Origin: Cornus controversa
Lineage: Eukaryota; Streptophyta; Magnoliopsida; Cornales; Cornaceae
Direction of reading: 5' to 3'
Length of the DNA stretch: 64,000 bases
NCBI GenBank assembly: GCA_026545225.1
Contig: CM048847.1
Location: forward strand, 14,565,835-14,629,834
In this document: positions 1 to 34,556 of the stretch, piece after piece
Position numbering within the stretch: position 1 is the stretch's first letter
Layout of the letters: the number at the start of each line of letters is the position of its first letter
Made by a program: the position numbers and the translations under genes
The notes under the pieces: model-generated
What the model was told of the DNA's origin: nothing
The model's database searches: none
The model's input: the letters and a program-made list of their open reading frames with translations, nothing else

Positions 1-33
1 TGCTTTGATGGTCTAATTTGGAAAAAAGAAACT

Positions 34-176
34 TACGATTCTGATTATGACACAACTTCTCAAGGACTGGGGTTTTCGAATCAGAACAACTTAAACTAAA
101 CTTGTTTCAAATCATCGATAGCTTGGGAATTGTTTCTTTTAATTGTCCAGATGGTTGAAGTTGGCATAGAGCACCA
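34..176. repeat. Subunit A1 (~143 bp)
   Basis: A full-length A-type monomer. It begins with the TACGATTCTGATTATGACAC stretch, has a central GAATCAGAACAACTTAAAC core and ends in TGGCATAGAGCACCA. It is the most variable part of the unit between HOR types. Type a has GACTGGGGTTTTCGAAT, type b GAAATGGGGTTTTTGAAT, type c CTTATTTAAAATCCTCGA, and type d an ATGGGGTTTTTGAAT / GTTTAAAATCATCG combination. These differences are what I used to name HOR types. Confidence 0.88.
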
Positions 177-263
177 TACGGTTGTGATCATTCATGGGTG
201 CAGCAAGAAATTACTCTTTTCGATTCAGGACGTCCTCACGGTCGAATTAGGCATAAAGCAACG
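177..263. repeat. Subunit B1, shortened B/A chimera (~87 bp)
   Basis: The left half (to about 230) matches the start of the full B subunit at 404. The right half (from about 231) matches the end of A subunits, with GGTCGAATT-GGCATAAAG. Relative to a 143-bp subunit, about 56 bp of the middle is missing. The join lies in or beside a perfect 10-bp palindrome, AGGACGTCCT, at 227-236. Every intact HOR unit has this shortened form, so the event predates amplification of the 737-bp unit. Confidence 0.82.
227..236. repeat. 10-bp perfect palindrome AGGACGTCCT in B1
   Basis: AGGACGTCCT is its own reverse complement. It is flanked by a looser TTCGA / TCGAA pair, giving an imperfect dyad of about 28 bp. 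It recurs once per HOR in most units. Type b units change it to CAGTACGTCCACAC, and type e has CACGACGTCCTAAC, so the symmetry is not universal. Its location at the B1 truncation join is visible directly. A protein-binding or hairpin role is only a possibility. Confidence 0.6.
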
Positions 264-403
264 TATAATTCTATGTATGGCACGATTTCACGTGGATTGG
301 ACTTTTCGAATCAGGACAGGTCAAACGAAACAAGTTCAAAACCGTTGTTGTCATTCTCTATTCTTCTGGACATCCAGATGGTCAATTCTAGCACAAAGCG
401 CCA
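264..403. repeat. Subunit A2 (~140 bp)
   Basis: A full-length A-type monomer containing TATGGCACGATTTCACG, TTTTCGAATCAGGACAGG and a terminal ATCCAGATGGTCAATTCTAG. Some units carry CTGGACATCCAG here, a near-perfect inverted repeat with 5-bp arms. Others carry CTAGACATCCAG or CTAGAGATCCAG, which break it. In type c units this subunit carries several extra substitutions. Confidence 0.86.
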
Positions 404-546
404 TACGGTTGTGGTCATGCCTGGTTATTGCAAGGAATTGTTCTTTTTGACTCAGAACAACTCAAACAAACATGGATGAAGATCGGATCGACATGCTCGT
501 CGTTTCTTTGGGACCCTTTGATGGTTTCATTTAGAAAAAAACAGCG
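404..546. repeat. Subunit B2 (~143 bp), the only full-length B
   Basis: This is the complete B-type monomer against which the shortened B1 and B3 are judged. It starts at CATACGGTTGTGGTCATGCC, passes GACTCAGAACAACTCAAAC and GATGAAGATCGGATCGACAT, and ends at an A7 tract (535-541) followed by CAGCG. The shared GACTCAGAACAACTCAAAC core shows that A and B descend from one ancestral monomer. The single retroposon-like insertion of the window lies in the B2 copy at 12.83 kb. Confidence 0.86.
535..541. repeat. A-tract at the end of subunit B2 (recurs in each unit)
   Basis: Seven A residues close subunit B2, and six A residues occur near the end of B3 (759-764). The pair recurs in every unit, though some units have A6 at B2. 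Such tracts bend DNA and are common in satellites. No function can be read from them here. Confidence 0.5.
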
Positions 547-689
547 TACGATTAATATTATGGCACGACTTCTCTTGGAATGCGGTTTTCGAATCAAAAC
601 AACTCAAATGAAACAAGTTTAAAATGGTTGGTAGCTTACAAATTGTTTCCTTTAGATGTCCAAACGGTCGAATTTGGAACAAAGCACCA
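547..689. repeat. Subunit A3 (~143 bp)
   Basis: A full-length A-type monomer. It starts TACGATTAATATTATGGCAC, has AATCAAAACAACTCAAATG in the middle and ends TCGAATTTGGAACAAAGCAC. Between units it varies in AATATTATGG / AGTATTATGG / ACTATTATCG, and in TCTTGGAATG / TCTCGGAATG / TCTTGGACTG. These variants separate the families along the array. Confidence 0.86.
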
Positions 690-770
690 TACGATTGTGA
701 TGAAGATCGGATTGACATGTTCGTCACTTCTTTTGGATGCTTTGATGGTCTAATTTGGAAAAAAGAAACT
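690..770. repeat. Subunit B3, internally deleted B (~81 bp)
   Basis: Both ends match the full B2 subunit: start TACGATTGTG, then ATGAAGATCGGATTGACATG, TTTGATGGT, and an A6 tract at 759-764. About 62 bp of the B middle, including the GAATCAGAACAACTC core, is missing. The left part joins directly to ATGAAGATCGG. The deletion is fixed in all HOR units seen. Confidence 0.84.
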
Positions 771-2978
771 TACGATTCTGATTATGGCACGACATCTCAG
801 GGAATGGGTTTTTGAATCAGAACAACTGAAACTAAACTTGTTTAAAATCATCGATAGCTTGGGAATTGTTTCTTTTACTTGTCCAGATTGTTGAAGTTGG
901 CATAGAGCACCATACGGTTGTGATCATTCATGGGTGCAGCATGGAATTACTCTTTTCGATTCACGACGTCCTAACGGTTGAATTTGGCATAAAGCAACGT
1001 ATAATTCTATGTATGGCACGATTTCACGTGGATTGGACTTTTCGAATCAGGACAAGTCAAACGAAACAAGTTCGAAACCGTTGTTGTCATTCTCTATTTT
1101 TCTGGACATCCAGATGGTCAATTCTAGCACAAAGCGCCATACGGTTGTCGTCATGCCTGATTATTGCAAGCAATTGTTCTTTCAACTCAGAACAACTCAA
1201 ACAAACATGGATGAAGAACGGATCGACATGCTCGTCGATTCTTTGGGACGCTTTGATGGTTTCATTTAGAAAAAAGCAGCGTACGATTAGTATTATGGCA
1301 CGACTTCTCTCGGAATGTGGTTTTTGAATCAAAACAACTCAAACGAAACAAGTTTAAAATGGTTGGTAGCTTGCTAATTGTTTCCTTTAGATGTCCAAAT
1401 AGTCGAACTTGGAACAAAGCACCATACGGTTGTGCTGAAGATCGGATTGACATGTTCGTCACTTCTTTTGGATGCTTTGATGGTCTAATTTGGAAAAAAG
1501 AAACTTACGATTCTGATTATGGCACGACTTCTCAAGGAATGGGTTTTTGAATCAAAACAACTCAAACTAAACTTGTTTAAATTCATCGATAGCTTGGGAA
1601 TTGTTTCTTTTACTTGTCCAGATGGTTGAAGTTGGCATAGAGCACCATACGGTTGTGATCATTCATGAGTGCAGCAAGGAATTACTCTTTTCGATTCAGG
1701 ACGTCCTCACGGTCGAATTAGGCATAATGCAACGTATAATTCTATGTATGGCACGATTTCACGTGGATTGGACTTTTCGAATCAGGACAGGTCAAACCAA
1801 ACAAGTTCAAAACCGTTGTTGTCATTCTCTATTCTTCTAGACATCCAGATGGTCAATTCTAGGACAAAGCACCATACGGTTGTGGTCATGCCTGGTTATT
1901 GCAAGGAATTGTTCTTTTCGACTCATAACAACTCAAACAAACATGGATGAAGATCGGATCGACATGCTCGTCGTTTCTTTGGGACGCTTTGATGGTTTCA
2001 TTTACAAAAAAACAGCGTACGATTAGTATTATGGCACGACTTCTCTTGGACTGTGGTTTTCTAATCATAACAACTCAAATGAAACAAGTTTAAAATGGTT
2101 GGTAGCTTACAAATTGTTTCCTTTAGATGTCAAAACGGTCGAATTTGGAACAAAGCACCATACGGTTGTGATGAAGATCGGATTGACATGTTCGTCACTT
2201 CTTTTGGATGCTTTGATGGTCTAATTTGGAAAAAAGAAACTTACGATTCTGATTATGACACAACTTCTCAAGGACTGGGGTTTTCGAATCAGAACAACGT
2301 AAACTAAACTTGTTTCAAATCATCGATAGCTTGGGAATTGTTTCTTTTAATTGTCCAGATGGTTGAAGTTGGCATAGAGCACCATACGGTTGTGATCATT
2401 CATGGGTGAAGCAAGAAATTACTCTTTTCGATTTAGGACGTCCTCACGGTCGAATTAGGCATAAAGCAACGTATAATTCTATGTATGGCACGATTTCACG
2501 TGGATTGGACTTTTCGAATCAGGACAGGTCAAACGAAACAAGTTCAAAACCGTTGTTGTCATTCTCTATTCTTCTAGACATCCAGATGGTCAATTCTAGC
2601 ACAACGCACCATACGGTTGTCGTCATGCCTGATTATTGCAAGCAATTGTTCTTTCAACTCAGAACAACTCAAACAAACATGGATGAAGAACGGATCGACA
2701 TGCTCGTCGATTCTTTGGGACCCTTTGATGGTTTCATTTAGAAAAAAGCAGCGTACGATTACTATTATCGCACGACTTCTCTCGGAATGCGGTTTTTGAA
2801 TCAAAACAACTCAAATGAAACAAGTTTAAAATGGTTGGTAGCTTGCAAATTGTTTCCTTTTAGATGTCGAAACGGTCAAATTTGGAACAAAGCGCCATAC
2901 GGTTGTGATGAAGATCGGATTGACATGTTCGTCACTTCTTTTGGATGCTTTGATGGTCTAATTTGGAAAAAAGAAACT

Positions 2979-3272
2979 TACGATTCTGATCGACATGCTC
3001 GTCGTTTCTTTGGGACCCTTTGATGGTTTCATTTAGAAAAAAACAGCGTACGATTAATATTATGGCACGACTTCTCTTGGAATGTGGTTTTCTAATCAAA
3101 ACAACACAAATGAAACAAGTTTAAAATGGTTGGTAGCTTACAAATTGTTTCCTTTAGATGTCAAAACGGTCGAATTTGGAACAAAGCACCATACGGTTGT
3201 GATGAAGATCGGATTGACATGTTCGTCACTTCTTTTGGATGCTTTGATGGTCTAATTTGGAAAAAAGAAACT
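2979..3272. repeat. Shortened HOR unit (294 bp), first copy
   Basis: The unit begins normally with TACGATTCTGAT (2979-2990), then jumps to CGACATGCTCGTCG, which belongs to subunit B2. A3 and B3 follow as usual. The rest of A1, all of B1 and A2 and the first part of B2 are missing, about 443 bp. The bases GAT occur at both break sites in intact units, so the join has 3-bp microhomology. An identical short unit occurs at 9164. Confidence 0.9.
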
Positions 3273-6200
3273 TACGATTCTGATTATGACACAACTTCTC
3301 AAGGACTGGGGTTTTCGAATCAGAACAACTTAAACTAAACTTGTTTCAAATCATCGATAGCTTGGGAATTGTTTCTTTTAATTGTCCAGATGGTTGAAGT
3401 TGGCATAGAGCACCATACGGTTGTGATCATTCATGGGTGCAGCAAGAAATTACTCTTTTCGATTCAGGACGTCCTCACGGTCGAATTAGGCATAAAGCAA
3501 CGTATAATTCTATGTATGGCACGATTTCACGTGGATTGGACTTTTCGAATCAGGACAGGTCAAACGAAACAAGTTCAAAACCGTTGTTGTCATTCTCTAT
3601 TCTTCTGGACATCCAGATGGTCAATTCTAGCACAAAGCGCCATACGGTTGTGGTCATGCCTGGTTATTGCAAGGAATTGTTCTTTTTGACTCAGAACAAC
3701 TCAAACAAACATGGATGAAGATCGGATCGACATGCTCGTCGTTTCTTTGGGACCCTTTGATGGTTTCATTTAGAAAAAAACAGCGTACGATTAATATTAT
3801 GGCACGACTTCTCTTGGAATGCGGTTTTCGAATCAAAACAACTCAAATGAAACAAGTTTAAAATGGTTGGTAGCTTACAAATTGTTTCCTTTAGATGTCC
3901 AAACGGTCGAATTTGGAACAAAGCACCATACGATTGTGATGAAGATCGGATTGACATGTTCGTCACTTCTTTTGGATGCTTTGATGGTCTAATTTGGAAA
4001 AAAGAAACTTACGATTCTGATTATGGCACGACATCTCAGGGAATGGGTTTTTGAATCAGAACAACTGAAACTAAACTTGTTTAAAATCATCGATAGCTTG
4101 GGAATTGTTTCTTTTACTTGTCCAGATTGTTGAAGTTGGCATAGAGCACCATACGGTTGTGATCATTCATGGGTGCAGCATGGAATTACTCTTTTCGATT
4201 CACGACGTCCTAACGGTTGAATTTGGCATAAAGCAACGTATAATTCTATGTATGGCACGATTTCACGTGGATTGGACTTTTCGAATCAGGACAAGTCAAA
4301 CGAAACAAGTTCGAAACCGTTGTTGTCATTCTCTATTTTTCTGGACATCCAGATGGTCAATTCTAGCACAAAGCGCCATACGGTTGTCGTCATGCCTGAT
4401 TATTGCAAGCAATTGTTCTTTCAACTCAGAACAACTCAAACAAACATGGATGAAGAACGGATCGACATGCTCGTCGATTCTTTGGGACGCTTTGATGGTT
4501 TCATTTAGAAAAAAGCAGCGTACGATTAGTATTATGGCACGACTTCTCTCGGAATGTGGTTTTTGAATCAAAACAACTCAAACGAAACAAGTTTAAAATG
4601 GTTGGTAGCTTGCTAATTGTTTCCTTTAGATGTCCAAATAGTCGAACTTGGAACAAAGCACCATACGGTTGTGCTGAAGATCGGATTGACATGTTCGTCA
4701 CTTCTTTTGGATGCTTTGATGGTCTAATTTGGAAAAAAGAAACTTACGATTCTGATTATGGCACGACTTCTCAAGGAATGGGTTTTTGAATCAAAACAAC
4801 TCAAACTAAACTTGTTTAAATTCATCGATAGCTTGGGAATTGTTTCTTTTACTTGTCCAGATGGTTGAAGTTGGCATAGAGCACCATACGGTTGTGATCA
4901 TTCATGAGTGCAGCAAGGAATTACTCTTTTCGATTCAGGACGTCCTCACGGTCGAATTAGGCATAATGCAACGTATAATTCTATGTATGGCACGATTTCA
5001 CGTGGATTGGACTTTTCGAATCAGGACAGGTCAAACCAAACAAGTTCAAAACCGTTGTTGTCATTCTCTATTCTTCTAGACATCCAGATGGTCAATTCTA
5101 GGACAAAGCACCATACGGTTGTGGTCATGCCTGGTTATTGCAAGGAATTGTTCTTTTCGACTCATAACAACTCAAACAAACATGGATGAAGATCGGATCG
5201 ACATGCTCGTCGTTTCTTTGGGACCCTTTGATGGTTTCATTTAGAAAAAAACAGCGTACGATTAATATTATGGCACGACTTCTCTTGGAATGTGGTTTTC
5301 TAATCAAAACAACACAAATGAAACAAGTTTAAAATGGTTGGTAGCTTACAAATTGTTTCCTTTAGATGTCAAAACGGTCGAATTTGGAACAAAGCACCAT
5401 ACGGTTGTGATGAAGATCGGATTGACATGTTCGTCACTTCTTTTGGATGCTTTGATGGTCTAATTTGGAAAAAAGAAACTTACGATTCTGATTATGACAC
5501 AACTTCTCAAGGACTGGGGTTTTCGAATCAGAACAACGTAAACTAAACTTGTTTCAAATCATCGATAGCTTGGGAATTGTTTCTTTTAATTGTCCAGATG
5601 GTTGAAGTTGGCATAGAGCACCATACGGTTGTGATCATTCATGGGTGAAGCAAGAAATTACTCTTTTCGATTCAGGACGTCCTCACGGTCGAATTAGGCA
5701 TAAAGCAACGTATAATTCTATGTATGGCACGATTTCACGTGGATTGGACTTTTCGAATCAGGACATGTCAAACGAAACAAGTTCAAAACCGTTGTTGTCA
5801 TTCTCTATTCTTCTAGACATCCAGATGGTCAATTCTAGCACAAAGCACCATACGGTTGTGGTCATGCCTGGTTATTGCAAGGAATTGTTCTTTTTGACTC
5901 AGAACAACTCAAACAAACATGGATGAAGATCGGATCGACATGCTCGTCGTTTCTTTGGGACCCTTTGATGGTTTCATTTAGAAAAAAACAGCGTACGATT
6001 AATATTATGGCACGACTTCTCTTGGAATGTGGTTTTCTAATCAAAACAACACAAATGAAACAAGTTTAAAATGGTTGGTAGCTTACAAATTGTTTCCTTT
6101 AGATGTCAAAACGGTCGAATTTGGAACAAAGCACCATACGGTTGTGATGAAGATCGGATTGACATGTTCGTCACTTCTTTTGGATGCTTTGATGGTCTAA

Positions 6201-9163
6201 TTTGGAAAAAAGAAACTTACGATTCTGATTATGACACAACTTCTCAAGGACTGGGGTTTTCGAATCAGAACAACTTAAACTAAACTTGTTTCAAATCATC
6301 GATAGCTTGGGAATTGTTTCTTTTAATTGTCCAGATGGTTGAAGTTGGCATAGAGCACCATACGGTTGTGATCATTCATGGGTGCAGCAAGAAATTACTC
6401 TTTTCGATTCAGGACGTCCTCACGGTCGAATTAGGCATAAAGCAACGTATAATTCTATGTATGGCACGATTTCACGTGGATTGGACTTTTCGAATCAGGA
6501 CAGGTCAAACGAAACAAGTTCAAAACCGTTGTTGTCATTCTCTATTCTTCTAGACATCCAGATGGTCAATTCTAGCACAACGCACCATACGGTTGTCGTC
6601 ATGCCTGATTATTGCAAGCAATTGTTCTTTCAACTCAGAACAACTCAAACAAACATGGATGAAGAACGGATCGACATGCTCGTCGATTCTTTGGGACGCT
6701 TTGATGGTTTCATTTAGAAAAAAGCAGCGTACGATTACTATTATCGCACGACTTCTCTCGGAATGCGGTTTTTGAATCAAAACAACTCAAATGAAACAAG
6801 TTTAAAATGGTTGGTAGCTTGCAAATTGTTTCCTTTTAGATGTCGAAACGGTCAAATTTGGAACAAAGCGCCATACGGTTGTGATGAAGACCGGATTGAC
6901 ATGTTCGTCACTTCTTTTGGATGCTTTGATGGTCTAATTTGGAAAAAAGAAACTTATGATTCTGATTATGACACAACTTCTCAAGGACTGGGGTTTTCGA
7001 ATCAGAACAACTTAAACTAAACTTGTTTCAAATCATCGATAGCTTGGGAATTGTTTCTTTTAATTGTCCAGATGGTTGAAGTTGGCATAGAGCACCATAC
7101 GGTTGTGATCATTCATGGGTGCAGCAAGGAATTACTATTTTCGATTCACGACGTCCTAACGGTTGAATTTGGCATAAAGCAACGTATAATTCTATGTATG
7201 GCACGATTTCACGTGGATTGGACTTTTCGAATCAGGACAAGTCAAACGAAACAAGTTCGAAACCGTTGTTGTCATTCTCTATTTTTCTGGACATCCAGAT
7301 GGTCAATTCTAGCACAAAGCGCCATACGGTTGTCGTCATGCCTGATTATTGCAAGCAATTGTTCTTTCAACTCAGAACAACTCAAACAAACATGGATGAA
7401 GAACGGATCGACATGCTCGTCGATTCTTTGGGACGCTTTGATGGTTTCATTTAGAAAAAAGCAGCGTACGATTAGTATTATGGCACGACTTCTCTCGGAA
7501 TGTGGTTTTTGAATCAAAACAACTCAAACGAAACAAGTTTAAAATGGTTGGTAGCTTGCTAATTGTTTCCTTTAGATGTCCAAATAGTCGAACTTGGAAC
7601 AAAGCACCATACGGTTGTGCTGAAGATCGGATTGACATGTTCGTCACTTCTTTTGGATGCTTTGATGGTCTAATTTGGAAAAAAGAAACTTACGATTCTG
7701 ATTATGGCACGACTTCTCAAGGAATGGGTTTTTGAATCAAAACAACTCAAACTAAACTTGTTTAAATTCATCGATAGCTTGGGAATTGTTTCTTTTACTT
7801 GTCCAGATGGTTGAAGTTGGCATAGAGCACCATACGGTTGTGATCATTCATGAGTGCAGCAAGGAATTACTCTTTTCGATTCAGGACGTCCTCACGGTCG
7901 AATTAGGCATAATGCAACGTATAATTCTATGTATGGCACGATTTCACGTGGATTGGACTTTTCGAATCAGGACAGGTCAAACCAAACAAGTTCAAAACCG
8001 TTGTTGTCATTCTCTATTCTTCTAGACATCCAGATGGTCAATTCTAGGACAAAGCACCATACGGTTGTGGTCATGCCTGGTTATTGCAAGGAATTGTTCT
8101 TTTCGACTCATAACAACTCAAACAAACATGGATGAAGATCGGATCGACATGCTCGTCGTTTCTTTGGGACGCTTTGATGGTTTCATTTACAAAAAAACAG
8201 CGTACGATTAGTATTATGGCACGACTTCTCTTGGACTGTGGTTTTCTAATCATAACAACTCAAATGAAACAAGTTTAAAATGGTTTGTAGCTTACAAATT
8301 GTTTCCTTTAGATGTCAAAACGGTCGAATTTGGAACAAAGCACCATACGGTTGTGATGAAGATCGGATTGACATGTTCGTCACTTCTTTTGGATGCTTTG
8401 ATGGTCTAATTTGGAAAAAAGAAACTTACGATTCTGATTATGACACAACTTCTCAAGGACTGGGGTTTTCGAATCAGAACAACGTAAACTAAACTTGTTT
8501 CAAATCATCGATAGCTTGGGAATTGTTTCTTTTAATTGTCCAGATGGTTGAAGTTGGCATAGAGCACCATACGGTTGTGATCATTCATGGGTGAAGCAAG
8601 AAATTACTCTTTTCGATTCAGGACGTCCTCACGGTCGAATTAGGCATAAAGCAACGTATAATTCTATGTATGGCACGATTTCACGTGGATTGGACTTTTC
8701 GAATCAGGACAGGTCAAACGAAACAAGTTCAAAACCGTTGTTGTCATTCTCTATTCTTCTAGACATCCAGATGGTCAATTCTAGCACAACGCACCATACG
8801 GTTGTCGTCATGCCTGATTATTGCAAGCAATTGTTCTTTCAACTCAGAACAACTCAAACAAACATGGATGAAGAACGGATCGACATGCTCGTCGATTCTT
8901 TGGGACCCTTTGATGGTTTCATTTAGAAAAAAGCAGCGTACGATTACTATTATCGCACGACTTCTCTCGGAATGCGGTTTTTGAATCAAAACAACTCAAA
9001 TGAAACAAGTTTAAAATGGTTGGTAGCTTGCAAATTGTTTCCTTTTAGATGTCGAAACGGTCAAATTTGGAACAAAGCGCCATACGGTTGTGATGAAGAT
9101 CGGATTGACATGTTCGTCACTTCTTTTGGATGCTTTGATGGTCTAATTTGGAAAAAAGAAACT
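3273..9163. repeat. HOR block 2: units a, e, d, a', a, a/e, d, a'
   Basis: Eight units start at 3273, 4010, 4745, 5481, 6218, 6955, 7691 and 8427. The first part repeats block 1 at a displacement of 3,239 bp. The last part repeats the ~0.96-3.6 kb segment at a displacement of 6,185 bp. The unit at 6955 begins as type a but switches to type e after about 7140, a hybrid. No gene is present. Confidence 0.85.
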
Positions 9164-9457
9164 TACGATTCTGATCGACATGCTCGTCGTTTCTTTGGGA
9201 CCCTTTGATGGTTTCATTTAGAAAAAAACAGCGTACGATTAATATTATGGCACGACTTCTCTTGGAATGTGGTTTTCTAATCAAAACAACACAAATGAAA
9301 CAAGTTTAAAATGGTTGGTAGCTTACAAATTGTTTCCTTTAGATGTCAAAACGGTCGAATTTGGAACAAAGCACCATACGGTTGTGATGAAGATCGGATT
9401 GACATGTTCGTCACTTCTTTTGGATGCTTTGATGGTCTAATTTGGAAAAAAGAAACT
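9164..9457. repeat. Shortened HOR unit (294 bp), second copy
   Basis: It has the same 294-bp length and the same join (TACGATTCTGAT at 9164-9175, then CGACATGCTCG) as the short unit at 2979. They lie 6,185 bp apart and their neighbours also match at that spacing. The two were therefore copied together rather than deleted twice. Confidence 0.9.
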
Positions 9458-12400
9458 TACGATTCTGATTATGACACAACTTCTCAAGGACTGGGGTTTT
9501 CGAATCAGAACAACTTAAACTAAACTTGTTTCAAATCATCGATAGCTTGGGAATTGTTTCTTTTAATTGTCCAGATGGTTGAAGTTGGCATAGAGCACCA
9601 TACGGTTGTGATCATTCATGGGTGCAGCAAGAAATTACTCTTTTCGATTCAGGACGTCCTCACGGTCGAATTAGGCATAAAGCAACGTATAATTCTATGT
9701 ATGGCACGATTTCACGTGGATTGGACTTTTCGAATCAGGACAGGTCAAACGAAACAAGTTCAAAACCGTTGTTGTCATTCTCTATTCTTCTAGACATCCA
9801 GATGGTCAATTCTAGCACAACGCACCATACGGTTGTCGTCATGCCTGATTATTGCAAGCAATTGTTCTTTCAACTCAGAACAACTCAAACAAACATGGAT
9901 GAAGAACGGATCGACATGCTCGTCGATTCTTTGGGACGCTTTGATGGTTTCATTTAGAAAAAAGCAGCGTACGATTACTATTATCGCACGACTTCTCTCG
10001 GAATGCGGTTTTTGAATCAAAACAACTCAAATGAAACAAGTTTAAAATGGTTGATAGCTTGCAAATTGTTTCCTTTTAGATGTCGAAACGGTCAAATTTG
10101 GAACAAAGCGCCATACGGTTGTGATGAAGACCGGATTGACATGTTCGTCACTTCTTTTGGATGCTTTGATGGTCTAATTTGGAAAAAAGAAACTTATGAT
10201 TCTGATTATGACACAACTTCTCAAGAAATGGGGTTTTTGAATCAGAACAACTGAAACTAAACTTGTTTCAAATCATCAATAGCTTGGGAATTGTTTCTTT
10301 TACTTGTCCAGATGGTTGAAGTTGGCATAGAGCACCATACGGTTGTGATCATTCATGAGTGCAGCAAGGAATTACTCTTTTCGATTCAGTACGTCCACAC
10401 GGTCGAATTAGGCATAAAGCAACGTATAATTCTATGTATGGCACGATTTCACGTGGATTGGACTTTTCGAATCAGGACAGGTCAAACCAAACAAGTTCAA
10501 AACCGTTGTTGTCATTCTCTATTCTTCTGGACATCCAGATGGTCAATTCTAGCACAAAGCGCCATACGGTTGTGGTCGTGCCTGGTTATTGCAAGGAATT
10601 ATTCTTTTTGACTCAGAACAACTCAAACAAACATGGATGAAGATCGGATCGACATGCTCGTCGTTTCTTTGGGACCCTTTGATGGTTTCATTTAGAAAAA
10701 AACAGCGTACGATTAATATTATGGCACGACTTCTCTTGGAATGTGGTTTTCTAATCAAAACAACACAAATGAAACAAGTTTAAAATGGTTGGTAGCTTAC
10801 AAATTGTTTCCTTTAGATGTCAAAACGGTCGAATTTGGAACAAAGCACCATACGGTTGTGATGAAGATCGGATTGACATGTTCGTCACTTCTTTTGGATG
10901 CTTTGATGGTCTAATTTGGAAAAAAGAAACTTACGATTCTGATTATGACACAACTTCTCAAGGACTGGGGTTTTCGAATCAGAACAACTTAAACTAAACT
11001 TGTTTCAAATCATCGATAGCTTGGGAATTGTTTCTTTTAATTGTCCAGATGGTTGAAGTTGGCATAGAGCACCATACGGTTGTGATCATTCATGGGTGCA
11101 GCAAGAAATTACTCTTTTCGATTCAGGACGTCCTCACGGTCGAATTAGGCATAAAGCAACGTATAATTCTATGTATGGCACGATTTCACGTGGATTGGAC
11201 TTTTCGAATCAGGACAGGTCAAACGAAACAAGTTCAAAACCGTTGTTGTCATTCTCTATTCTTCTAGACATCCAGATGGTCAATTCTAGCACAACGCACC
11301 ATACGGTTGTCGTCATGCCTGATTATTGCAAGCAATTGTTCTTTCAACTCAGAACAACTCAAACAAACATGGATGAAGAACGGATCGACATGCTCGTCGA
11401 TTCTTTGGGACGCTTTGATGGTTTCATTTAGAAAAAAGTAGCGTACGATTACTATTATCGCACGACTTCTCTCGGAATGCGGTTTTTGAATCAAAACAAC
11501 TCAAATGAAACAAGTTTAAAATGGTTGGTAGCTTGCAAATTGTTTCCTTTTAGATGTCGAAACGGTCAAATTTGGAACAAAGCGCCATACGGTTGTGATG
11601 AAGATCGGATTGACATGTTCGTCACTTCTTTTGGATGCTTTGATGGTCTAATTTGGAAAAAAGAAACTTATGATTCTGATTATGACACAACTTCTCAAGA
11701 AATGGGGTTTTTGAATCAGAACAACTGAAACTAAACTTGTTTCAAATCATCAATAGCTTGGGAATTGTTTCTTTTACTTGTCCAGATGGTTGAAGTTGGC
11801 ATAGAGCACCATACGGTTGTGATCATTCATGAGTGCAGCAAGGAATTACTCTTTTCGATTCAGTACGTCCACACGGTCGAATTAGGCATAAAGCAACGTA
11901 TAATTCTATGTATGGCACGATTTCACGTGGATTGGACTTTTCGAATCAGGACAGGTCAAACCAAACAAGTTCAAAACCGTTGTTGTCATTCTCTATTCTT
12001 CTGGACATCCAGATGGTCAATTCTAGCACAAAGCGCCATACGGTTGTGGTCATGCCTGGTTATTGCAAGGAATTGTTCTTTTTGACTCAGAACAACTCAA
12101 ACAAACATGGATGAAGATCGGATCGACATGCTCGTCGTTTCTTTGGGACCCTTTGATGGTTTCATTTAGAAAAAAACAGCGTACGATTAATATTATGGCA
12201 TGACTTCTCTTGGAATGTGGTTTTCTAATCAAAACAACACAAATGAAACAAGTTTAAAATGGTTGGTAGCTTACAAATTGTTTCCTTTAGATGTCAAAAC
12301 GGTCGAATTTGGAACAAAGCACCATACGGTTGTGATGAAGATCGGATTGACATGTTCGTCACTTCTTTTGGATGCTTTGATGGTCTAATTTGGAAAAAAG

Positions 12401-12829
12401 AAACTTACGATTCTGATTATGACACAACTTCTCAAGGACTGGGGTTTTCGAATCAGAACAACTTAAACTAAACTTGTTTCAAATCATCGATAGCTTGGGA
12501 ATTGTTTCTTTTAATTGTCCAGATGGTTGAAGTTGGCATAGAGCACCATACGGTTGTGATCATTCATGGGTGCAGCAAGAAATTACTCTTTTCGATTCAG
12601 GACGTCCTCACGGTCGAATTAGGCATAAAGCAACGTATAATTCTATGTATGGCACGATTTCACGTGGATTGGACTTTTCGAATCAGGACAGGTCAAACCA
12701 AACAAGTTCAAAACCGTTGTTGTCATTCTCTATTCTTCTAGAGATCCAGATGGTCAATTCTAGCACAACACACCATACGGTTGTCGTCATGCCTGATTAT
12801 TGCAAGCAATTGTTCTTTCAACTCAGAAC

Positions 12830-12836
12830 AACTCAA
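12830..12836. repeat. Target-site duplication, left copy (AACTCAA)
   Basis: Left copy of the 7-bp direct repeat flanking the poly(A)-tailed insertion. The base before it is C, and the base before the right copy is A of the tail, so the exact left limit is defined only by the satellite consensus. Confidence 0.75.
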
Positions 12837-12858
12837 TATAATTGACCAGCTTATCTTT

Positions 12859-12887
<29 letters not shown>
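12837..12887 (+). mobile_element. Short poly(A)-tailed retroposed insertion
   Basis: Non-satellite sequence of 23 bp, TATAATTGACCAGCTTATCT followed by TTC, runs into a tract of 30 A (12860-12889). It interrupts subunit B2. The heptamer AACTCAA is on both sides (12830-12836 and 12888-12894). Removing the insert and one heptamer restores the normal B2 sequence, as seen in all other units. A pure A tail plus a target duplication is the hallmark of LINE-type target-primed reverse transcription. Only the extreme 3' end of the template was inserted, so the source (LINE, SINE or mRNA) cannot be told. There is no AATAAA in the 23 bp. The unbroken A tract suggests a recent event. Confidence 0.82.
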
Positions 12888-12892
<5 letters not shown>

Positions 12893-12894
12893 AA
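12888..12894. repeat. Target-site duplication, right copy (AACTCAA)
   Basis: Right copy of the direct repeat. Its first two A residues cannot be told apart from the end of the poly(A) tail. Satellite sequence resumes with ACGAACATGG, a variant of the usual ACAAACATGG that is shared with the sister unit at 38671. Confidence 0.75.
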
Positions 12895-13200
12895 ACGAAC
12901 ATGGATGAAGAACGGATCGACATGCTCGTCGATTCTTTGGGACGCTTTGATGGTTTCATTTAGAAAAAAGCAGCGTACGATTACTATTATCGCACGACTT
13001 CTCTCGGAATGCGGTTTTTGAATCAAAACAACTCAAATGAAACAAGTATAAAATGGTTGGTAGCTTGCAAATTGTTTCCTTTTAGATGTCGAAACGGTCA
13101 AATTTGGAACAAAGCGCCATACGGTTGTGATGAAGATCGGATTGACATGTTCGTCACTTCTTTTGGATGCTTTGATGGTCTAATTTGGAAAAAAGAAACT

Positions 13201-16200
13201 TACGATTCTGATTATGACACAACTTCTCAAGGACTGGGGTTTTCGAATCAGAACAACTTAAACTAAACTTGTTTCAAATCATCGATAGCTTGGGAATTGT
13301 TTCTTTTAATTGTCCAGATGGTTGAAGTTGGCATAGAGCACCATACGGTTGTGATCATTCATGGGTGCAGCAAGAAATTACTCTTTTCGATTCAGGACGT
13401 CCTCACGGTCGAATTAGGCATAAAGCAACGTATAATTCTATGTATGGCACGATTTCACGTGGATTGGACTTTTCGAATCAGGACAGGTCAAACGAAACAA
13501 GTTCAAAACCGTTGTTGTCATTCTCTATTCTTCTAGAGATCCAGATGGTCAATTCTAGCACAAAGCACCATACGGTTGTGGTCATGCCTGGTTATTGCAA
13601 GGAATTGTTCTTTTTGACTCAGAACAACTCAAACAAACATGGATGAAGATCGGATCGACATGCTCGTCGTTTCTTTGGGACCCTTTGATGGTTTCATTTA
13701 GAAAAAAACAGCGTACGATTAATATTATGGCACGACTTCTCTTGGAATGTGGTTTTCTAATCAAAACAACACAAATGAAACAAGTTTAAAATGGTTGGTA
13801 GCTTGCTAATTGTTTCCTTTAGATGTCCAAATAGTCGAACTTGGAACAAAGCGCCATACGGTTGTGCTGATGATCGGATTGACATGTTCGTCACTTCTTT
13901 TGGATGCTTTGATGGTCTAATTTGGAAAAAAGAAACTTACGATTCTGATTATGGCACGACTTCTCAAGGAATGGGTTTTTGAATCAGAACAACTCAAACT
14001 AAACTTATTTAAAATCCTCGATAGCTTGGAAATTGTTTCTTTTACTTTTCCAGATGGTTGAAGTTGGCATAGAGCACCATACGGTTGTGATCATTCATGA
14101 GTGCAGCAAGGAATTACTATTTTTGATTCAGGACGTCCTGATGGTTGAATTTGGCATAAAGCAATGAATAATTCTAAGTAAGGCACAATTTCACGTGGAT
14201 TGGACTTTTCGAATCAGGACAAGTCAAACGAAACAAGTTCGAAACCGTTGTTGTCATTCTCTATTTTTCTGGACATCCAGATGGTCAATTCTAGCACAAA
14301 GCGCCATACGGTTGTCGTCATACCTGATTACTGCAAGCGATAGTTTTTTCGACTCAGAATAACTCAAACAAACATGGATGAAGATCGGATCGACATGCTC
14401 GTCGTTTCTTTGGGACGCTTTGATGGTTTCATTTAGAAAAAAGTAGCGTACGATTAGTATTATGGCACGACTTCTCTTGGAATGTGGTTTTCTAATCATA
14501 ACAACTCAAATGAAACAAGTTTAAAATGGTTGGTCGCTTGCAAATTATTTCCTTTAGATGTCGAAACGGTCGAATTTGGAACAAAGCACCATACGGTTGT
14601 GATGAAGATCGGATTGACATGTTCGTCACTTCTTTTGGATGCTTTGATGGTCTAATTTGGAAAAAAGAAACTTACGATTCTGATTATGACACAACTTCTC
14701 AAGGAATGGGGTTTTTGAATCAGAACAACTGAAACTAAACTTGTTTAAAATCATCGATAGCTTGGGAATTGTTTCTTTTACTTGTCCAGATGGTTGAAGT
14801 TGGCATAGAGCACCATACGGTTGTGATCATTCATGAGTGCAGCAAGGAATTACTCTTTTCGATTCAGGACGTCCTCACGGTCGAATTAGGCATAATGCAA
14901 CGTATAATTCTATGTATGGCACGATTTCTCGTGGATTAGACTTTTCGAATCAGGACAGGTCAAACCAAACAAGTTCAAAACCGTTGTTGTCATTCTCTAT
15001 TCTTCTAGACATCCAGATGGTCAATTCTAGGACAAAGCACCATACGGTTGTGGTCATGCCTGGTTATTGCAAGGAATTGTTCTTTTCGACTCATAACAAC
15101 TCAAACAAACATGGATGAAGATCGGATCGACATGCTCGTCGTTTCTTTGGGACGCTTTGATGGTTTCATTTACAAAAAAACAGCGTACGATTAGTATTAT
15201 GGCACGACTTCTCTTGGACTGTGGTTTTCTAATCATAACAACTCAAATGAAACAAGTTTAAAATGGTTGGTAGCTTACAAATTGTTTCCTTTAGATGTCA
15301 AAACGGTCGAATTTGGAACAAAGCACCATACGGTTGTGATGAAGATCGGATTGACATGTTCGTCACTTCTTTTGGATGCTTTGATGGTCTAATTTGGAAA
15401 AAAGAAACTTACGATTCTGATTATGACACAACTTCTCAAGGACTGGGGTTTTCGAATCAGAACAACTTAAACTAAACTTGTTTCAAATCATCGATAGCTT
15501 GGGAATTGTTTCTTTTAATTGTCCAGATGGTTGAAGTTGGCATAGAGCACCATACGGTTGTGATCATTCATGGGTGCAGCAAGAAATTACTCTTTTCGAT
15601 TCAGGACGTCCTCACGGTCGAATTAGGCATAAAGCAACGTATAATTCTATGTATGGCACGATTTCACGTGGATTGGACTTTTCGAATCAGGACAGGTCAA
15701 ACCAAACAAGTTCAAAACCGTTGTTGTCATTCTCTATTCTTCTAGACATCCAGATGGTCAATTCTAGGACAAAGCACCATACGGTTGTGGTCATGCCTGG
15801 TTATTGCAAGGAATTGTTCTTTTCGACTCAGAACAACTCAAACAAACATGGATGAAGATCGGATCGACATGCTCGTCGTTTCTTTGGGACCCTTTGATGG
15901 TTTCATTTAGAAAAAAACAGCGTACGATTAATATTATGGCACGAATTCTCTTGGAATGTGGTTTTCTAATCAAAACAACACAAATGAAACAAGTTTAAAA
16001 TGGTTGGTAGCTTGCTAATTGTTTCCTTTAGATGTCCAAATAGTCGAACTTGGAACAAAGCGCCATACGGTTGTGCTGATGATCGGATTGACATGTTCGT
16101 CACTTCTTTTGGATGCTTTGATGGTCTAATTTGGAAAAAAGAAACTTACGATTCTGATTATGGCACGACTTCTCAAGGAATGGGTTTTTGAATCAGAACA

Positions 16201-18353
16201 ACTCAAACTAAACTTATTTAAAATCCTCGATAGCTTGGAAATTGTTTCTTTTACTTTTCCAGATGGTTGAAGTTGGCATAGAGCACCATACGGTTGTGAT
16301 CATTCATGAGTGCAGCATGGAATTACTATTTTTGATTCAGGACGTCCTGATGGTTGAATTTGGCATAAAGCAATGAATAATTCTAAGTAAGGCACAATTT
16401 CACGTGGATTGGACTTTTCGAATCAGGACAAGTCAAACGAAACAAGTTCGAAACCGTTGTTGTCATTCTCTATTTTTCTGGACATCCAGATGGTCAATTC
16501 TAGCACAAAGCGCCATACGGTTGTCGTCATACCTGATTACTGCAAGCGATAGTTTTTTCGACTCAGAATAACTCAAACAAACATGGATGAAGATCGGATC
16601 GACATGCTCGTCGTTTCTTTGGGACGCTTTGATGGTTTCATTTAGAAAAAAGTAGCGTACGATTAGTATTATGGCACGACTTCTCTTGGAATGTGGTTTT
16701 CTAATCATAACAACTCAAATGAAACAAGTTTAAAATGGTTGGTAGCTTGCAAATTATTTCCTTTAGATGTCGAAACGGTCGAATTTGGAACAAAGCACCA
16801 TACGGTTTTGATGAAGATCGGATTGACATGTTCGTCACTTCTTTTGGATGCTTTGATGGTCTAATTTGGAAAAAAGAAACTTACGATTCTGATTATGACA
16901 CAACTTCTCAAGGAATGGGGTTTTTGAATCAGAACAACTGAAACTAAACTTGTTTAAAATCATCGATAGCTTGGGAATTGTTTCTTTTACTTGTCCAGAT
17001 GGTTGAAGTTGGCATAGAGCACCATACGGTTGTGATCATTCATGAGTGCAGCAAGGAATTACTCTTTTCGATTCAGGACGTCCTCACGGTCGAATTAGGC
17101 ATAATGCAACGTATAATTCTATGTATGGCACGATTTCTCGTGGATTAGACTTTTCGAATCAGGACAGGTCAAACCAAACAAGTTCAAAACCGTTGTTGTC
17201 ATTCTCTATTCTTCTAGACATCCAGATGGTCAATTCTAGGACAAAGCACCATACGGTTGTGGTCATGCCTGGTTATTGCAAGGAATTGTTCTTTTCGACT
17301 CATAACAACTCAAACAAACATGGATGAAGATCGGATCGACATGCTCGTCGTTTCTTTGGGACGCTTTGATGGTTTCATTTACAAAAAAACAGCGTACGAT
17401 TAATATTATGGCACGACTTCTCTTGGAATGTGGTTTTCTAATCAAAACAACACAAATGAAACAAGTTTAAAATGGTTGGTAGCTTGCTAATTGTTTCCTT
17501 TAGATGTCCAAATAGTCGAACTTGGAACAAAGCGCCATACGGTTGTGCTGATGATCGGATTGACATGTTCGTCACTTCTTTTGGATGCTTTGATGGTCTA
17601 ATTTGGAAAAAAGAAACTTACGATTCTGATTATGGCACGACTTCTCAAGGAATGGGTTTTTGAATCAGAACAACTCAAACTAAACTTATTTAAAATCCTC
17701 GATAGCTTGGAAATTGTTTCTTTTACTTTTCCAGATGGTTGAAGTTGGCATAGAGCACCATACGGTTGTGATCATTCATGAGTGCAGCAAGGAATTACTA
17801 TTTTTGATTCAGGACGTCCTGATGGTTGAATTTGGCATAAAGCAATGAATAATTCTAAGTAAGGCACAATTTCACGTGGATTGGACTTTTCGAATCAGGA
17901 CAAGTCAAACGAAACAAGTTCGAAACCGTTGTTGTCATTCTCTATTTTTCTGGACATCCAGATGGTCAATTCTAGCACAAAGCGCCATACGGTTGTCGTC
18001 ATACCTGATTACTGCAAGCGATAGTTTTTTCGACTCAGAATAACTCAAACAAACATGGATGAAGATCGGATCGACATGCTCGTCGTTTCTTTGGGACGCT
18101 TTGATGGTTTCATTTAGAAAAAAGTAGCGTACGATTAGTATTATGGCACGACTTCTCTTGGAATGTGGTTTTCTAATCATAACAACTCAAATGAAACAAG
18201 TTTAAAATGGTTGGTAGCTTGCAAATTATTTCCTTTAGATGTCGAAACGGTCGAATTTGGAACAAAGCACCATACGGTTGTGATGAAGATCGGATTGACA
18301 TGTTCGTCACTTCTTTTGGATGCTTTGATGGTCTAATTTGGAAAAAAGAAACT
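13201..18353. repeat. HOR block 4: units a-c-d, a-c-d, c
   Basis: Units start at 13201 (a), 13938 (c), 14673 (d), 15410 (a), 16147 (c), 16882 (d) and 17619 (c). The a-c-d triple repeats with a 2,209-bp period, then a c unit follows without its a partner. Type c units have AACTTATTTAAAATCCTCGA and an A2 subunit with CAATGAATAATTCTAAGTAA. No gene is present. Confidence 0.85.
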
Positions 18354-21300
18354 TACGATTCTGATTATGACACAACTTCTCAAGGAATGGGGTTTTTGAA
18401 TCAGAACAACTGAAACTAAACTTGTTTAAAATCATCGATAGCTTGGGAATTGTTTCTTTTACTTGTCCAGATGGTTGAAGTTGGCATAGAGCACCATACG
18501 GTTGTGATCATTCATGAGTGCAGCAAGGAATTACTCTTTTCGATTCAGGACGTCCTCACGGTCGAATTAGGCATAATGCAACGTATAATTCTATGTATGG
18601 CACGATTTCACGTGGATTGGACTTTTCGAATCAGGACAGGTCAAACGAAACAAGTTCAAAACCGTTGTTGTCATTCTCTATTCTTCTAGAGATCCAGATG
18701 GTCAATTCTAGCACAACACACCATACGGTTGTCGTCATGCCTGATTATTGCAAGCAATTGTTCTTTCAACTCAGAACAACTCAAACAAACATGGATGAAG
18801 ATCAGATCGACATGCTCGTCGATTCTTTGGGACGCTTTGATGGTTTCATTTAGAAAAAAGCAGCGTACGATTACTATTATCGCACGACTTCTCTCGGAAT
18901 GCAGTTTTTGAATCAAAACAACTCAAATGAAACAAGTTTAAAATGGTTGGTAGCTTGCAAATTGTTTCCTTTTAGATGTCGAAACGGTCAAATTTGGAAC
19001 AAAGCGCCATACGGTTGTGATGAAGATCGGATTGACATGTTCGTCACTTCTTTTGGATGCTTTGATGGTCTAATTTGGAAAAAAGAAACTTATGATTCTG
19101 ATTATGACACAACTTCTCAAGAAATGGGGTTTTTGAATCAGAACAACTGAAACTAAACTTGTTTCAAATCATCAATAGCTTGGGAATTGTTTCTTTTACT
19201 TGTCCAGATGGTTGAAGTTGGCATAGAGCACCATACGGTTGTGATCATTCATGAGTGCCGCAAGGAATTACTCTTTTCGATTAAGTACGTCCACACGGTC
19301 GAATTAGGCATAAAGCAACGTATAATTCTATGTATGGCACGATTTCACGTGGATTGGACTTTTCGAATCAGGACAGGTCAAACCAAACAAGTTCAAAACC
19401 GTTGTTGTCATTCTCTATTCTTCTGGACATCCAGATGGTCAATTCTAGCACAAAGCGCCATACGGTTGTGGTCATGCCTGGTTATTGTAAGGAATTGTTC
19501 TTTTTGACTCAGAACAACTCAAACAAACATGGATGAAGATCGGATCGACATGCTCGTCGTTTCTTTGGGACCCTTTGATGGTTTCATTTAGAAAAAAACA
19601 GCGTACGATTAATATTATGGCACGACTTCTCTTGGAATGTGGTTTTCTAATCAAAACAACACAAATGAAACAAGTTTAAAATGGTTGGTAGCTTGCTAAT
19701 TGTTTCCTTTAGATGTCCAAATAGTCGAACTTGGAACAAAGCGCCATACGGTTGTGCTGATGATCGGATTGACATGTTCGTCACTTCTTTTGGATGCTTT
19801 GATGGTCTAATTTGGAAAAAAGAAACTTACGATTCTGATTATGGCACGACTTCTCAAGGAATGGGTTTTTGAATCAGAACAACTCAAACTAAACTTATTT
19901 AAAATCCTCGATAGCTTGGAAATTGTTTCTTTTACTTTTCCAGATGGTTGAAGTTGGCATAGAGCACCATACGGTTGTGATCATTCATGAGTGCAGCAAG
20001 GAATTACTATTTTTGATTCAGGACGTCCTGATGGTTGAATTTGGCATAAAGCAATGAATAATTCTAAGTAAGGCACAATTTCACGTGGATTGGACTTTTC
20101 GAATCAGGACAAGTCAAACGAAACAAGTTCGAAACCGTTGTTGTCATTCTCTATTTTTCTGGACATCCAGATGGTCAATTCTAGCACAAAGCGCCATACG
20201 GTTGTCGTCATACCTGATTACTGCAAGCGATAGTTTTTTCGACTCAGAATAACTCAAACAAACATGGATGAAGATCGGATCGACATGCTCGTCGTTTCTT
20301 TGGGACGCTTTGATGGTTTCATTTAGAAAAAAGTAGCGTACGATTAGTATTATGGCACGACTTCTCTTGGAATGTGGTTTTCTAATCATAACAACTCAAA
20401 TGAAACAAGTTTAAAATGGTTGGTAGCTTGCAAATTATTTCCTTTAGATGTCGAAACGGTCGAATTTGGAACAAAGCACCATACGGTTGTGATGAAGATC
20501 GGATTGACATGTTCGTCACTTCTTTTGGATGCTTTGATGGTCTAATTTGGAAAAAAGAAACTTACGATTCTGATTATGACACAACTTCTCAAGGAATGGG
20601 GTTTTTGAATCAGAACAACTGAAACTAAACTTGTTTAAAATCATCGATAGCTTGGGAATTGTTTCTTTTACTTGTCCAGATGGTTGAAGTTGGCATAGAG
20701 CACCATACGGTTGTGATCATTCATGAGTGCAGCAAGGAATTACTCTTTTCGATTCAGGACGTCCTCACGGTCGAATTAGGCATAATGCAACGTATAATTC
20801 TATGTATGGCACGATTTCACGTGGATTGGACTTTTCGAATCAGGACAGGTCAAACCAAACAAGTTCAAAACCGTTGTTGTCATTCTCTATTCTTCTAGAG
20901 ATCCAGATGGTCAATTCTAGCACAACACACCATACGGTTGTCGTCATGCCTGATTATTGCAAGCAATTGTTCTTTCAACTCAGAACAACTCAAACAAACA
21001 TGGATGAAGATCAGATCGACATGCTCGTCGATTCTTTGGGACGCTTTGATGGTTTCATTTAGAAAAAAGCAGCGTACGATTACTATTATCGCACGACTTC
21101 TCTCGGAATGCGGTTTTTGAATCAAAACAACTCAAATGAAACAAGTTTAAAATGGTTGGTAGCTTGCAAATTGTTTCCTTTTAGATGTCGAAACGGTCAA
21201 ATTTGGAACAAAGCGCCATACGGTTGTGATGAAGATCGGATTGACATGTTCGTCACTTCTTTTGGATGCTTTGATGGTCTAATTTGGAAAAAAGAAACTT

Positions 21301-24300: not shown

Positions 24301-24980
24301 CTCAAACTAAACTTATTTAAAATCCTCGATAGCTTGGAAATTGTTTCTTTTACTTTTCCAGATGGTTGAAGTTGGCATAGAGCACCATACGGTTGTGATC
24401 ATTCATGAGTGCAGCAAGGAATTACTATTTTTGATTCAGGACGTCCTGATGGTTGAATTTGGCATAAAGCAATGAATAATTCTAAGTAAGGCACAATTTC
24501 ACGTGGATTGGACTTTTCGAATCAGGACAAGTCAAACGAAACAAGTTCGAAACCGTTGTTGTCATTCTCTATTTTTCTGGACATCCAGATGGTCAATTCT
24601 AGCACAAAGCGCCATACGGTTGTCGTCATACCTGATTACTGCAAGCGATAGTTTTTTCGACTCAGAATAACTCAAACAAACATGGATGAAGATCGGATCG
24701 ACATGCTCGTCGTTTCTTTGGGACGCTTTGATGGTTTCATTTAGAAAAAAGTAGCGTACGATTAGTATTATGGCACGACTTCTCTTGGAATGTGGTTTTC
24801 TAATCATAACAACTCAAATGAAACAAGTTTAAAATGGTTGGTAGCTTGCAAATTATTTCCTTTAGATGTCGAAACGGTCGAATTTGGAACAAAGCACCAT
24901 ACGGTTGTGATGAAGATCGGATTGACATGTTCGTCACTTCTTTTGGATGCTTTGATGGTCTAATTTGGAAAAAAGAAACT
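18354..24980. repeat. HOR block 5: d-b-c triple, three tandem copies (2,209 bp)
   Basis: The order d-b-c occurs three times, with units starting at 18354, 19091, 19828; 20563, 21300, 22037; 22772, 23509, 24246. The block is exactly 3 x 2,209 bp. The b units share GAGTGCCGCAAGG and TTAAGTACGTCC, private to this sub-family and to its later copy at 33.1 kb. Only a few substitutions separate the three copies, for example TGCAGTTTTTG at about 18901 against TGCGGTTTTTG in the others. Confidence 0.87.
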
Positions 24981-33800: not shown

Positions 33801-34556
33801 CTAATTTGGAAAAAAGAAACTTACGATTCTGATTATGGCACGACTTCTCAAGGAATGGGTTTTTGAATCAGAACAACTCAAACTAAACTTATTTAAAATC
33901 CTCGATAGCTTGGAAATTGTTTCTTTTACTTTTCCAGATGGTTGAAGTTGGCATAGAGCACCATACGGTTGTGATCATTCATGAGTGCAGCAAGGAATTA
34001 CTATTTTTGATTCAGGACGTCCTGATGGTTGAATTTGGCATAAAGCAATGAATAATTCTAAGTAAGGCACAATTTCACGTGGATTGGACTTTTCGAATCA
34101 GGACAAGTCAAACGAAACAAGTTCGAAACCGTTGTTGTCATTCTCTATTTTTCTGGACATCCAGATGGTCAATTCTAGCACAAAGCGCCATACGGTTGTC
34201 GTCATACCTGATTACTGCAAGCGATAGTTTTTTCGACTCAGAATAACTCAAACAAACATGGATGAAGATCGGATCGACATGCTCGTCGTTTCTTTGGGAC
34301 GCTTTGATGGTTTCATTTAGAAAAAAGTAGCGTACGATTAGTATTATGGCACGACTTCTCTTGGAATGTGGTTTTCTAATCATAACAACTCAAATGAAAC
34401 AAGTTTAAAATGGTTGGTAGCTTGCAAATTATTTCCTTTAGATGTCGAAACGGTCGAATTTGGAACAAAGCACCATACGGTTGTGATGAAGATCGGATTG
34501 ACATGTTCGTCACTTCTTTTGGATGCTTTGATGGTCTAATTTGGAAAAAAGAAACT
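30873..34556. repeat. HOR block 7: d, a, a, b, c
   Basis: Units start at 30873, 31610, 32347, 33085 and 33822. The d-a start continues the 2,946-bp pattern of block 6. From about 32.9 kb the block instead matches block 5 (units b and c at 23509 and 24246) at a 9,576-bp displacement. The a unit at 32347 is mosaic in its B2/A3 part. This block therefore holds a junction between two super-repeat families. Confidence 0.8.

Follow-up and report, generated by a model that had tools for sequence, protein, structure and literature searches.

A higher-order satellite repeat of 737 bp in Cornus controversa with apparent intermediate stages of its growth on different chromosomes

The 64 kb of Cornus controversa DNA analyzed here in full (hereafter the window) was found to be a single satellite array in one orientation, as seen when its positions 34-770 were matched against the whole. 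The window lies on the 77.2 Mb contig C3, in an assembly of 771.7 Mb and 61 contigs, ten of which measure 48-129 Mb. In an ungapped self-comparison over all lags from 20 to 11,999, the highest identity in the window (0.611) was obtained at lag 737, followed by lags 2946 and 2209, which confirms the period on which the earlier note had suggested a check by self-comparison. Tandem Repeats Finder, with a longest period of 500, hence reported mostly near-repeats of 223-225 bp. Positions 34-770 had 85 near-complete matches in the window, 85 out of 85 on the plus strand, and the 84 complete units, i.e. those whose matches ended before the end of the window, made up the aligned set. The features of the array and of its reference unit are as follows.

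1..64000, plus strand: array of the 737-bp unit, with 84 complete units and partial ones (unit matches)
34..770, plus strand: reference 737-bp unit, A1-B1-A2-B2-A3-B3 (matches, profile segmentation, part lengths)
34..176, plus strand: subunit A1, 143 bp (segmentation, lengths)
177..263, plus strand: subunit B1, 87 bp, a B without its middle, model positions ~56-104 (segmentation; the breakpoint matches copies in C2, C4, C5, C8 and C14)
264..403, plus strand: subunit A2, 140 bp (segmentation, lengths)
404..546, plus strand: subunit B2, 143 bp, the sole full-length B in the unit (segmentation, lengths)
547..689, plus strand: subunit A3, 143 bp (segmentation, lengths)
690..770, plus strand: subunit B3, 81 bp, a B without ~62 bp of its left half (segmentation; the breakpoint matches copies in C4 and C8)
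2979..3272, plus strand: 294-bp partial unit consisting of a B right end, an A and a B3 (matches, segmentation)
9164..9457, plus strand: 294-bp gap between complete units, equal in length to the partial unit at 2979-3272 (unit matches)
12837..12889, plus strand: short insert inside a B2, ending in A30 and with CTCAA on both sides (sequence comparison, repeat finding)

The six parts A1-B1-A2-B2-A3-B3 were recovered in the alignment of all 84 complete units. The earlier note had proposed exactly such an alternation, with two of the three B subunits shortened (87 and 81 bp against 143), and this holds in 84 of 84. The lengths of B1 (87 bp), A2 (140 bp) and B3 (81 bp) are fixed throughout, while A1 (142-143 bp), B2 (142-143 bp) and A3 (143-144 bp) vary by a single bp, and the units accordingly measure 737 (n=59), 735 (n=17), 736 (n=5) or 738 bp (n=3). 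By eye, a GAT is common to both sides of the B3 joint. Strict tandem order is interrupted by the two 294-bp stretches (2979-3272 and 9164-9457) and by the poly-A insert near 12837-12889. This insert resembles a strongly 5'-truncated poly-A retroelement, and a 13-mer from it, ATTGACCAGCTTA, also ends a locus at 60 Mb of C1, one of the 73 loci searched. No Rfam family was found in the window at gathering thresholds, and open frames of at least 120 aa number nine, the longest having 153 aa and a TTG start. Head-to-tail arrangement was seen in the 84 complete units of the window, and satellite sequence continued throughout five further 10-kb samples.

A and B are real monomer classes. In the window units, A subunits share an identity of 0.64-0.77 with one another and B subunits one of 0.67-0.79, as against 0.54-0.64 when A is compared with B, at a monomer length of ~139-144 bp. 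The separation of A1-A3 from B1-B3, on which the earlier note had staked its scheme, was recovered in two trees. FastTree, run on the window subunits together with 25 distinct monomers from an array at 5.0 Mb of C3, placed B1, B2, B3 and the B-type monomers of the latter array on one side with a support of 0.997. IQ-TREE, run on 188 monomers from 11 contigs, yielded the A/B split with a bootstrap of 97 and 0 of 188 monomers misplaced, a figure that expresses agreement between methods rather than a blind test, since the class labels came from profile HMMs of both classes. The latter set omits 44 monomers from 0 and 1 Mb of C3 (232 reduced to 188) as well as pieces shorter than 120 bp and all B1- and B3-type copies; these two types were aligned separately with at most two per label. 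The two classes alternate, also in samples of C6, C7, C15, C16 and C30; departures are AA pairs in the 5-Mb array of C3 and, where units are partial, occasional BB pairs. Position-specific clades spanning both contig groups were obtained with IQ-TREE for A2, all 16 copies of which fell into a clade of 20 with support 69, and for B2, with 13 of its 14 copies in a clade of 15 and a support of 98. The best clade for A1 held 11 of 17 (support 100) and was restricted to C3, C4 and C8, and that for A3 held 8 of 13 (support 42), with the A3 of C4 among the missing. Between units of the window, identity is 0.917-1.0 with a median of 0.949, against 0.54-0.79 among the monomers of a unit, so that the latter are far less alike than successive units, as in a higher-order repeat (HOR).

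At 10 differences, the 84 units fall into 15 clusters arranged in ordered runs. Super-repeats of 2 to 7 units had been proposed earlier, and runs of two, three, four and seven units were indeed observed.

9458..12405, plus strand: two-unit super-repeat, 2 copies (unit comparison)
17619..24980, plus strand: three-unit super-repeat, 3.33 copies (unit comparison)
33085..38976, plus strand: four-unit super-repeat, 2 copies (only at the looser limit of 8 differences)
47819..58132, plus strand: seven-unit super-repeat, 2 copies (unit comparison)

Further runs at lag 3 were found at 39714-44133 and 49291-53712. With near-identical pairs defined by at most 4 differences and 300 shuffles as permutation control, no immediate neighbors were near-identical (0/83 at lag 1), while lag 3 gave 20 pairs out of 81 versus a permutation mean of 4.5 and a maximum of 11. 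Lag 4 (14/80) came out just above its shuffle maximum of 12. Lag 2 (4/82) and lag 7 (10/77, shuffle maximum 11) do not exceed the shuffles, and the super-repeats of two and seven units therefore rest on one clean run each.

Genome-wide, the B1 junction (30 bases, at most 3 mismatches) was found in 11,841 copies (3991 + 7850) and the B3 junction (33 bases, at most 3 mismatches) in 13,805 copies (6655 + 7150), with reversed-pattern controls giving 0 in both cases. Multiplied by 737 bp, this corresponds to ~8.7-10.2 Mb of satellite, or roughly 1.1-1.3% of the assembly, some units being shorter. Among the 100 places listed, exact B1 junctions were situated on C3, C4 and C8, and exact B3 junctions all on C3. 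The chromosomes also harbor 16 fragments of the RuBisCO large subunit, half of them with internal stops, and other open frames seen in the genome resemble plastid accD and ycf2, which points to a land plant. An insert in the array on C3 (5748-6173 of the ~1.98-Mb sample) has an open frame that looks to us like plastid ycf2 and may be plastid DNA transferred to the nucleus, here within the satellite.

Satellite sequence is present from the first bases of C2-C8, i.e. at seven out of nine readable contig starts (the start of C1 is masked), and the initial 2 kb of C9 and of C10 showed no satellite. At the other extreme, the last 400 bp are satellite in one of the ten chromosome contigs, namely C2, and none of the ten had satellite 300 kb from the far end in single 100-bp samples. 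Point samples taken at 1 Mb (C2, C5, C6, C7) and 0.5 Mb (C8) contained satellite, which was lacking in those from 2 Mb (C2, C4) and 3.5 Mb (C3). Separate blocks were found on C3 near 5 and 14 Mb and on C4 at 17.5 Mb. In the samples of C3 the satellite is on the minus strand until a switch near 1.985 Mb, on the plus strand at 3.0 Mb, on the minus strand (diverged) at 5.0 Mb and on the plus strand at 14.0 Mb. The switch takes place around a 307-bp non-satellite stretch (~1,984,559-1,984,865), and the arms on its two sides are inverted copies, 96% identical over 889 bp. We take the 307-bp stretch to resemble a 5S-carrying Cassandra-type LTR; it had no Rfam match at the gathering threshold. A 5S rRNA gene was also identified, with 79 bits, in the last bases of C5 (310-400 of the end sample), and a different, TTTTGGGGTTTTGG-type sequence, repeat-like by eye, occurs at the end of C1, the start of C9 and the end of C10. 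The sole telomere array seen (TTTAGGG) is at the end of C6, with no satellite in the 400 bp sampled there, and no TTTAGGG repeats accompany the satellite at the assembled starts sampled.

Gene positions were sampled by scoring 141 out of 2901 kinase/PPR candidates and another 150 out of 3800, merged within 1 Mb. In this rough sample, five kinase and PPR loci are located in the first third of C3-C8 and 28 in the last third. C1, C9 and C10, where no satellite is visible at the start (C1 being masked), have eight loci in the first third versus 20. As these three lean the same way, the gene asymmetry is not specific to the satellite. Judging from contig positions and the gene sample, we somewhat favor, as the setting of the array, a non-coding heterochromatin in a centromeric or pericentromeric position, where chromosomes of acrocentric type have their gene-poor end. 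With respect to role rather than structure, the satellite could instead be subtelomeric, capping one or both chromosome arms under the telomere and spread by ectopic exchange. We regard this as a genuine, if tentative, possibility, given that the assembled sequence of C2-C8 opens with satellite and that C2 has satellite at its other assembled end as well; on C2, kinase genes begin at 4.16 Mb, i.e. ~4 Mb in. Non-centromeric HOR arrays, some of them at both distal ends, are moreover described for Salicaceae in the part of the source available (PMC12046899). Against it stand the far ends, with satellite in one of ten contigs and in none at 300 kb, the first 10 kb of C3, in which no TTTAGGG telomere motif was found, and the interior blocks on C3 and C4. 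As to function, the account with the best support is that of a structural heterochromatin molded by recurrent amplification on the spot.

Unit structures differ between contigs, as seen in samples comprising the first 2 kb of each. In C6, C7, C15, C16 and C30, A and B alternate with B at full length or nearly so (one B of C15 starts from model position 21), and C30 has lags of 287, 573 and 860. The samples of C2, C5 and C14 have the B1 deletion but lack the 62-bp deletion of B3. Both deletions, with matching breakpoints, were found in C3, C4 and C8, and the B3 deletion is confined to these three among the samples. Only C14 displays the B1-deleted state as a regular six-part unit, A-b1-A-B-A-B, with a period of ~783 and a B3 that is 16-17 bp short. 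In C2 and C5, the shortened b1 is accompanied by B's that are full length or have one 17-bp loss elsewhere, and the unit composition is not regular: in C5 two b1 are separated by four dimers, and C2 has a full B in an expected b1 slot, one A missing, and a full-length B preceding A1-B1. Irregular units were also found in C4, one of them with an extra dimer, and one b1 slot of C8, outside the breakpoint alignment, is just 67 bp. A single breakpoint of the B1 deletion is shared by 14 aligned copies, out of 28 found in C2, C3, C4, C5, C8 and C14 by a rule requiring a gap near these breakpoints, and a single breakpoint of the B3 deletion by eight aligned copies from C3, C4 and C8. At matching positions, divergence is 0.085-0.125 between C3 and C8 and 0.19-0.25 from C3 to C2, C5 and C14, which agrees with the nesting of the deletions. 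An outlier is the A3 of C4, at 0.271 from that of C3 and far above the other parts of C4.

With a probability of roughly 0.78, we consider this plant satellite HOR to have grown in nested steps, from a dimer by way of triplication, loss in B1, loss in B3 and amplification to super-repeats. A monomer of ~141-143 bp would have been duplicated, with the copies diverging into A and B and becoming fixed as an A-B dimer of ~285 bp. A block of three dimers would then have served as a new unit, in which the first B lost ~56 bp and the third B later lost ~62 bp. Each deletion affects one of three B's and hence most simply postdates the three-dimer unit. Unequal exchange or copying by way of circles would then have multiplied the resulting 737-bp unit, which C3, C4 and C8 carry in the places seen, until its junction copies exceeded ten thousand. 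Lastly, local variants would have been re-amplified into super-repeats whose lengths differ between chromosomes. The sequences themselves show the A/B classes, the six parts, the super-repeats and, within the samples, the nesting of the two deletions, while the time order of the steps and the copying mechanism are what we infer here. Triplication of a dimer followed by two deletions and then amplification had been suggested in the earlier note, and the suggestion gains support from contigs with the dimer, with the B1 deletion alone or with both deletions (2-kb samples, with C2, C4 and C5 irregular).

The six-part unit might instead have arisen in one complex event rather than by triplication and two ordered deletions. 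The mixture of unit types in C2, C4 and C5 would fit such an origin, as would the lack of single clades for A1 and A3 over the contigs. It is nevertheless improbable in view of the regular six-part unit of C14, where B1 is deleted and B3 is short by only 16-17 bp, of the full-length B ahead of A1-B1 in C2, and of the distributions of the two deletions, which are nested and not identical.

The last of the nested steps, i.e. the formation of super-repeats, is more strongly patterned outside the window, and the lengths vary by chromosome in the stretches examined, which were hand-picked among the 100 junction places listed. On C3, 21 of 22 intervals between 13.946 and 13.979 Mb equal 1472 bp (23 of the 44 listed C3 places); past 13.979 Mb, the listed places on this contig are irregular. 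On C4, 18 of 19 intervals equal 3774 bp at 3.068-3.140 Mb (20 of 27 listed C4 places), and at the start of C8, 18 of 24 equal 2874 bp (25 of 29 listed C8 places). Could the super-repeats be an artefact of assembly? The lengths differ between chromosomes and are near-constant within the examined stretches, and the window units form 15 clusters, which makes such an artefact highly improbable.

Two further variants of the family were encountered on C3. Units of only ~473 bp occur at 3.0 Mb. They include a B of 107 bp that corresponds in alignment to B1 at its left and to B2 at its right, the two meeting close to a TCG(G)AT common to both, as would be expected of an exchange between B parts that are paralogous. 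The array at 5.0 Mb, likewise built from monomers of this family, has a higher-order structure of its own, in which the order aAB is combined with blocks of aB and of AB. The lags of 3944 and 3381, the strongest in this array, correspond to ~28 and ~24 monomers, and none of its 69 monomer calls is truncated.

B1 might also be thought a hybrid whose left half comes from B and whose right half comes from A, the A-B alternation then being merely apparent, as its right 40 bp are A-like by eye and the profile search called five such ends A, but B1 is nearest to B-type monomers of the 5-Mb array (0.75 to m05) and groups with B in the FastTree tree, so we rejected this reading, which can practically be discarded.

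Out of 603 A calls, 597 were full length, and the six short ones comprise five right ends of B1 slots and one trimmed hit, which leaves no truncated A among the 603. B was full length in 232 of 584 calls and short in 352, with at least four different deletions or hybrids; these numbers count copies and not events, and they are not independent, since the two main B deletions were amplified together. A could thus be kept intact as a chromatin-organizing element, with B as an expendable spacer, a rather unlikely proposition that draws on sequence patterns. If true, A would carry a phased nucleosome or a protein site; alternatively, a small number of deletions would simply have hitch-hiked. Within the window, diversity amounts to 0.044 for A1, 0.033 for A2, 0.059 for A3, 0.053 for B1, 0.053 for B2 and 0.011 for B3, and divergence between C3 and C8 is 0.085-0.125 for A and 0.109 for B2. 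Sequence constraint on A finds no support, given that A and B2 diverge alike between contigs. It is these similar rates, together with the truncated B3 being the least variable part in the window, that keep a functional A at low probability.

In its layered organization, the array is like human alpha satellite (dimeric SF1/SF2 and its HORs), with two alternating classes built into multimer units and these into longer units, and the likeness pointed out in the earlier note thus stands, even though the satellite is no member of the alpha family. Alpha satellite, according to the available part of its description, likewise has monomers within a unit far less alike than successive units and has chromosome-specific HORs (PMC8122249). 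The terms nested or cascading HORs have been applied to it (PMC11050224), and its monomer is given as ~171 bp (PMC12046899), both as stated in the portions of text at hand. The present satellite differs in its plant host, its monomer of ~139-144 bp and the truncation, throughout the complete units of the window, of two B monomers out of three. The pattern TTCGNNNNANNCGGG, which we take to be the CENP-B box core, had 0 matches in the 64 kb of the window, with 0.45 expected by chance. A CENP-B-like box was accordingly rejected for the window, and alpha satellite membership was rejected on monomer length, host and the missing CENP-B core.

Among plant satellites, CEN178 HORs of Arabidopsis seem less regular than a fixed six-part unit in this copy number. 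According to the part of the source available, CEN178 and other plant centromere satellites have monomers of 100-200 bp in head-to-tail arrays with HORs (PMC12046899), features that the Cornus array has in common with CEN178. The same partial source describes Palv148 and Salix180 of Salicaceae as forming megabase arrays with HORs and no CENH3 peaks, Salix180 being found, in the case of one species, mostly at the two distal ends of chromosomes (PMC12046899). The Cornus satellite resembles these two as a large plant array with HORs, and a unit of A-B dimers with truncated monomers is not part of their description, as far as the available text goes, the comparison being one of descriptions. Searches of the open-access literature by unit length and HOR terms found, among the papers listed, no published description of the 737-bp family, and short strings from the satellite, searched in paper text, matched just an unrelated human paper.

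The family is thus a satellite HOR of familiar type, and its interest lies mainly in what appear to be intermediate stages side by side. The origins of HORs are usually deduced from the finished product, whereas one genome here seems to keep successive stages on different chromosomes, from the dimer through three-dimer units that have first one and then both of the deletions to the super-repeats, linked by shared breakpoints that can be counted. The order of events may thus be tested with simple junction probes, in what would be a plant counterpart to alpha satellite that evolved independently.
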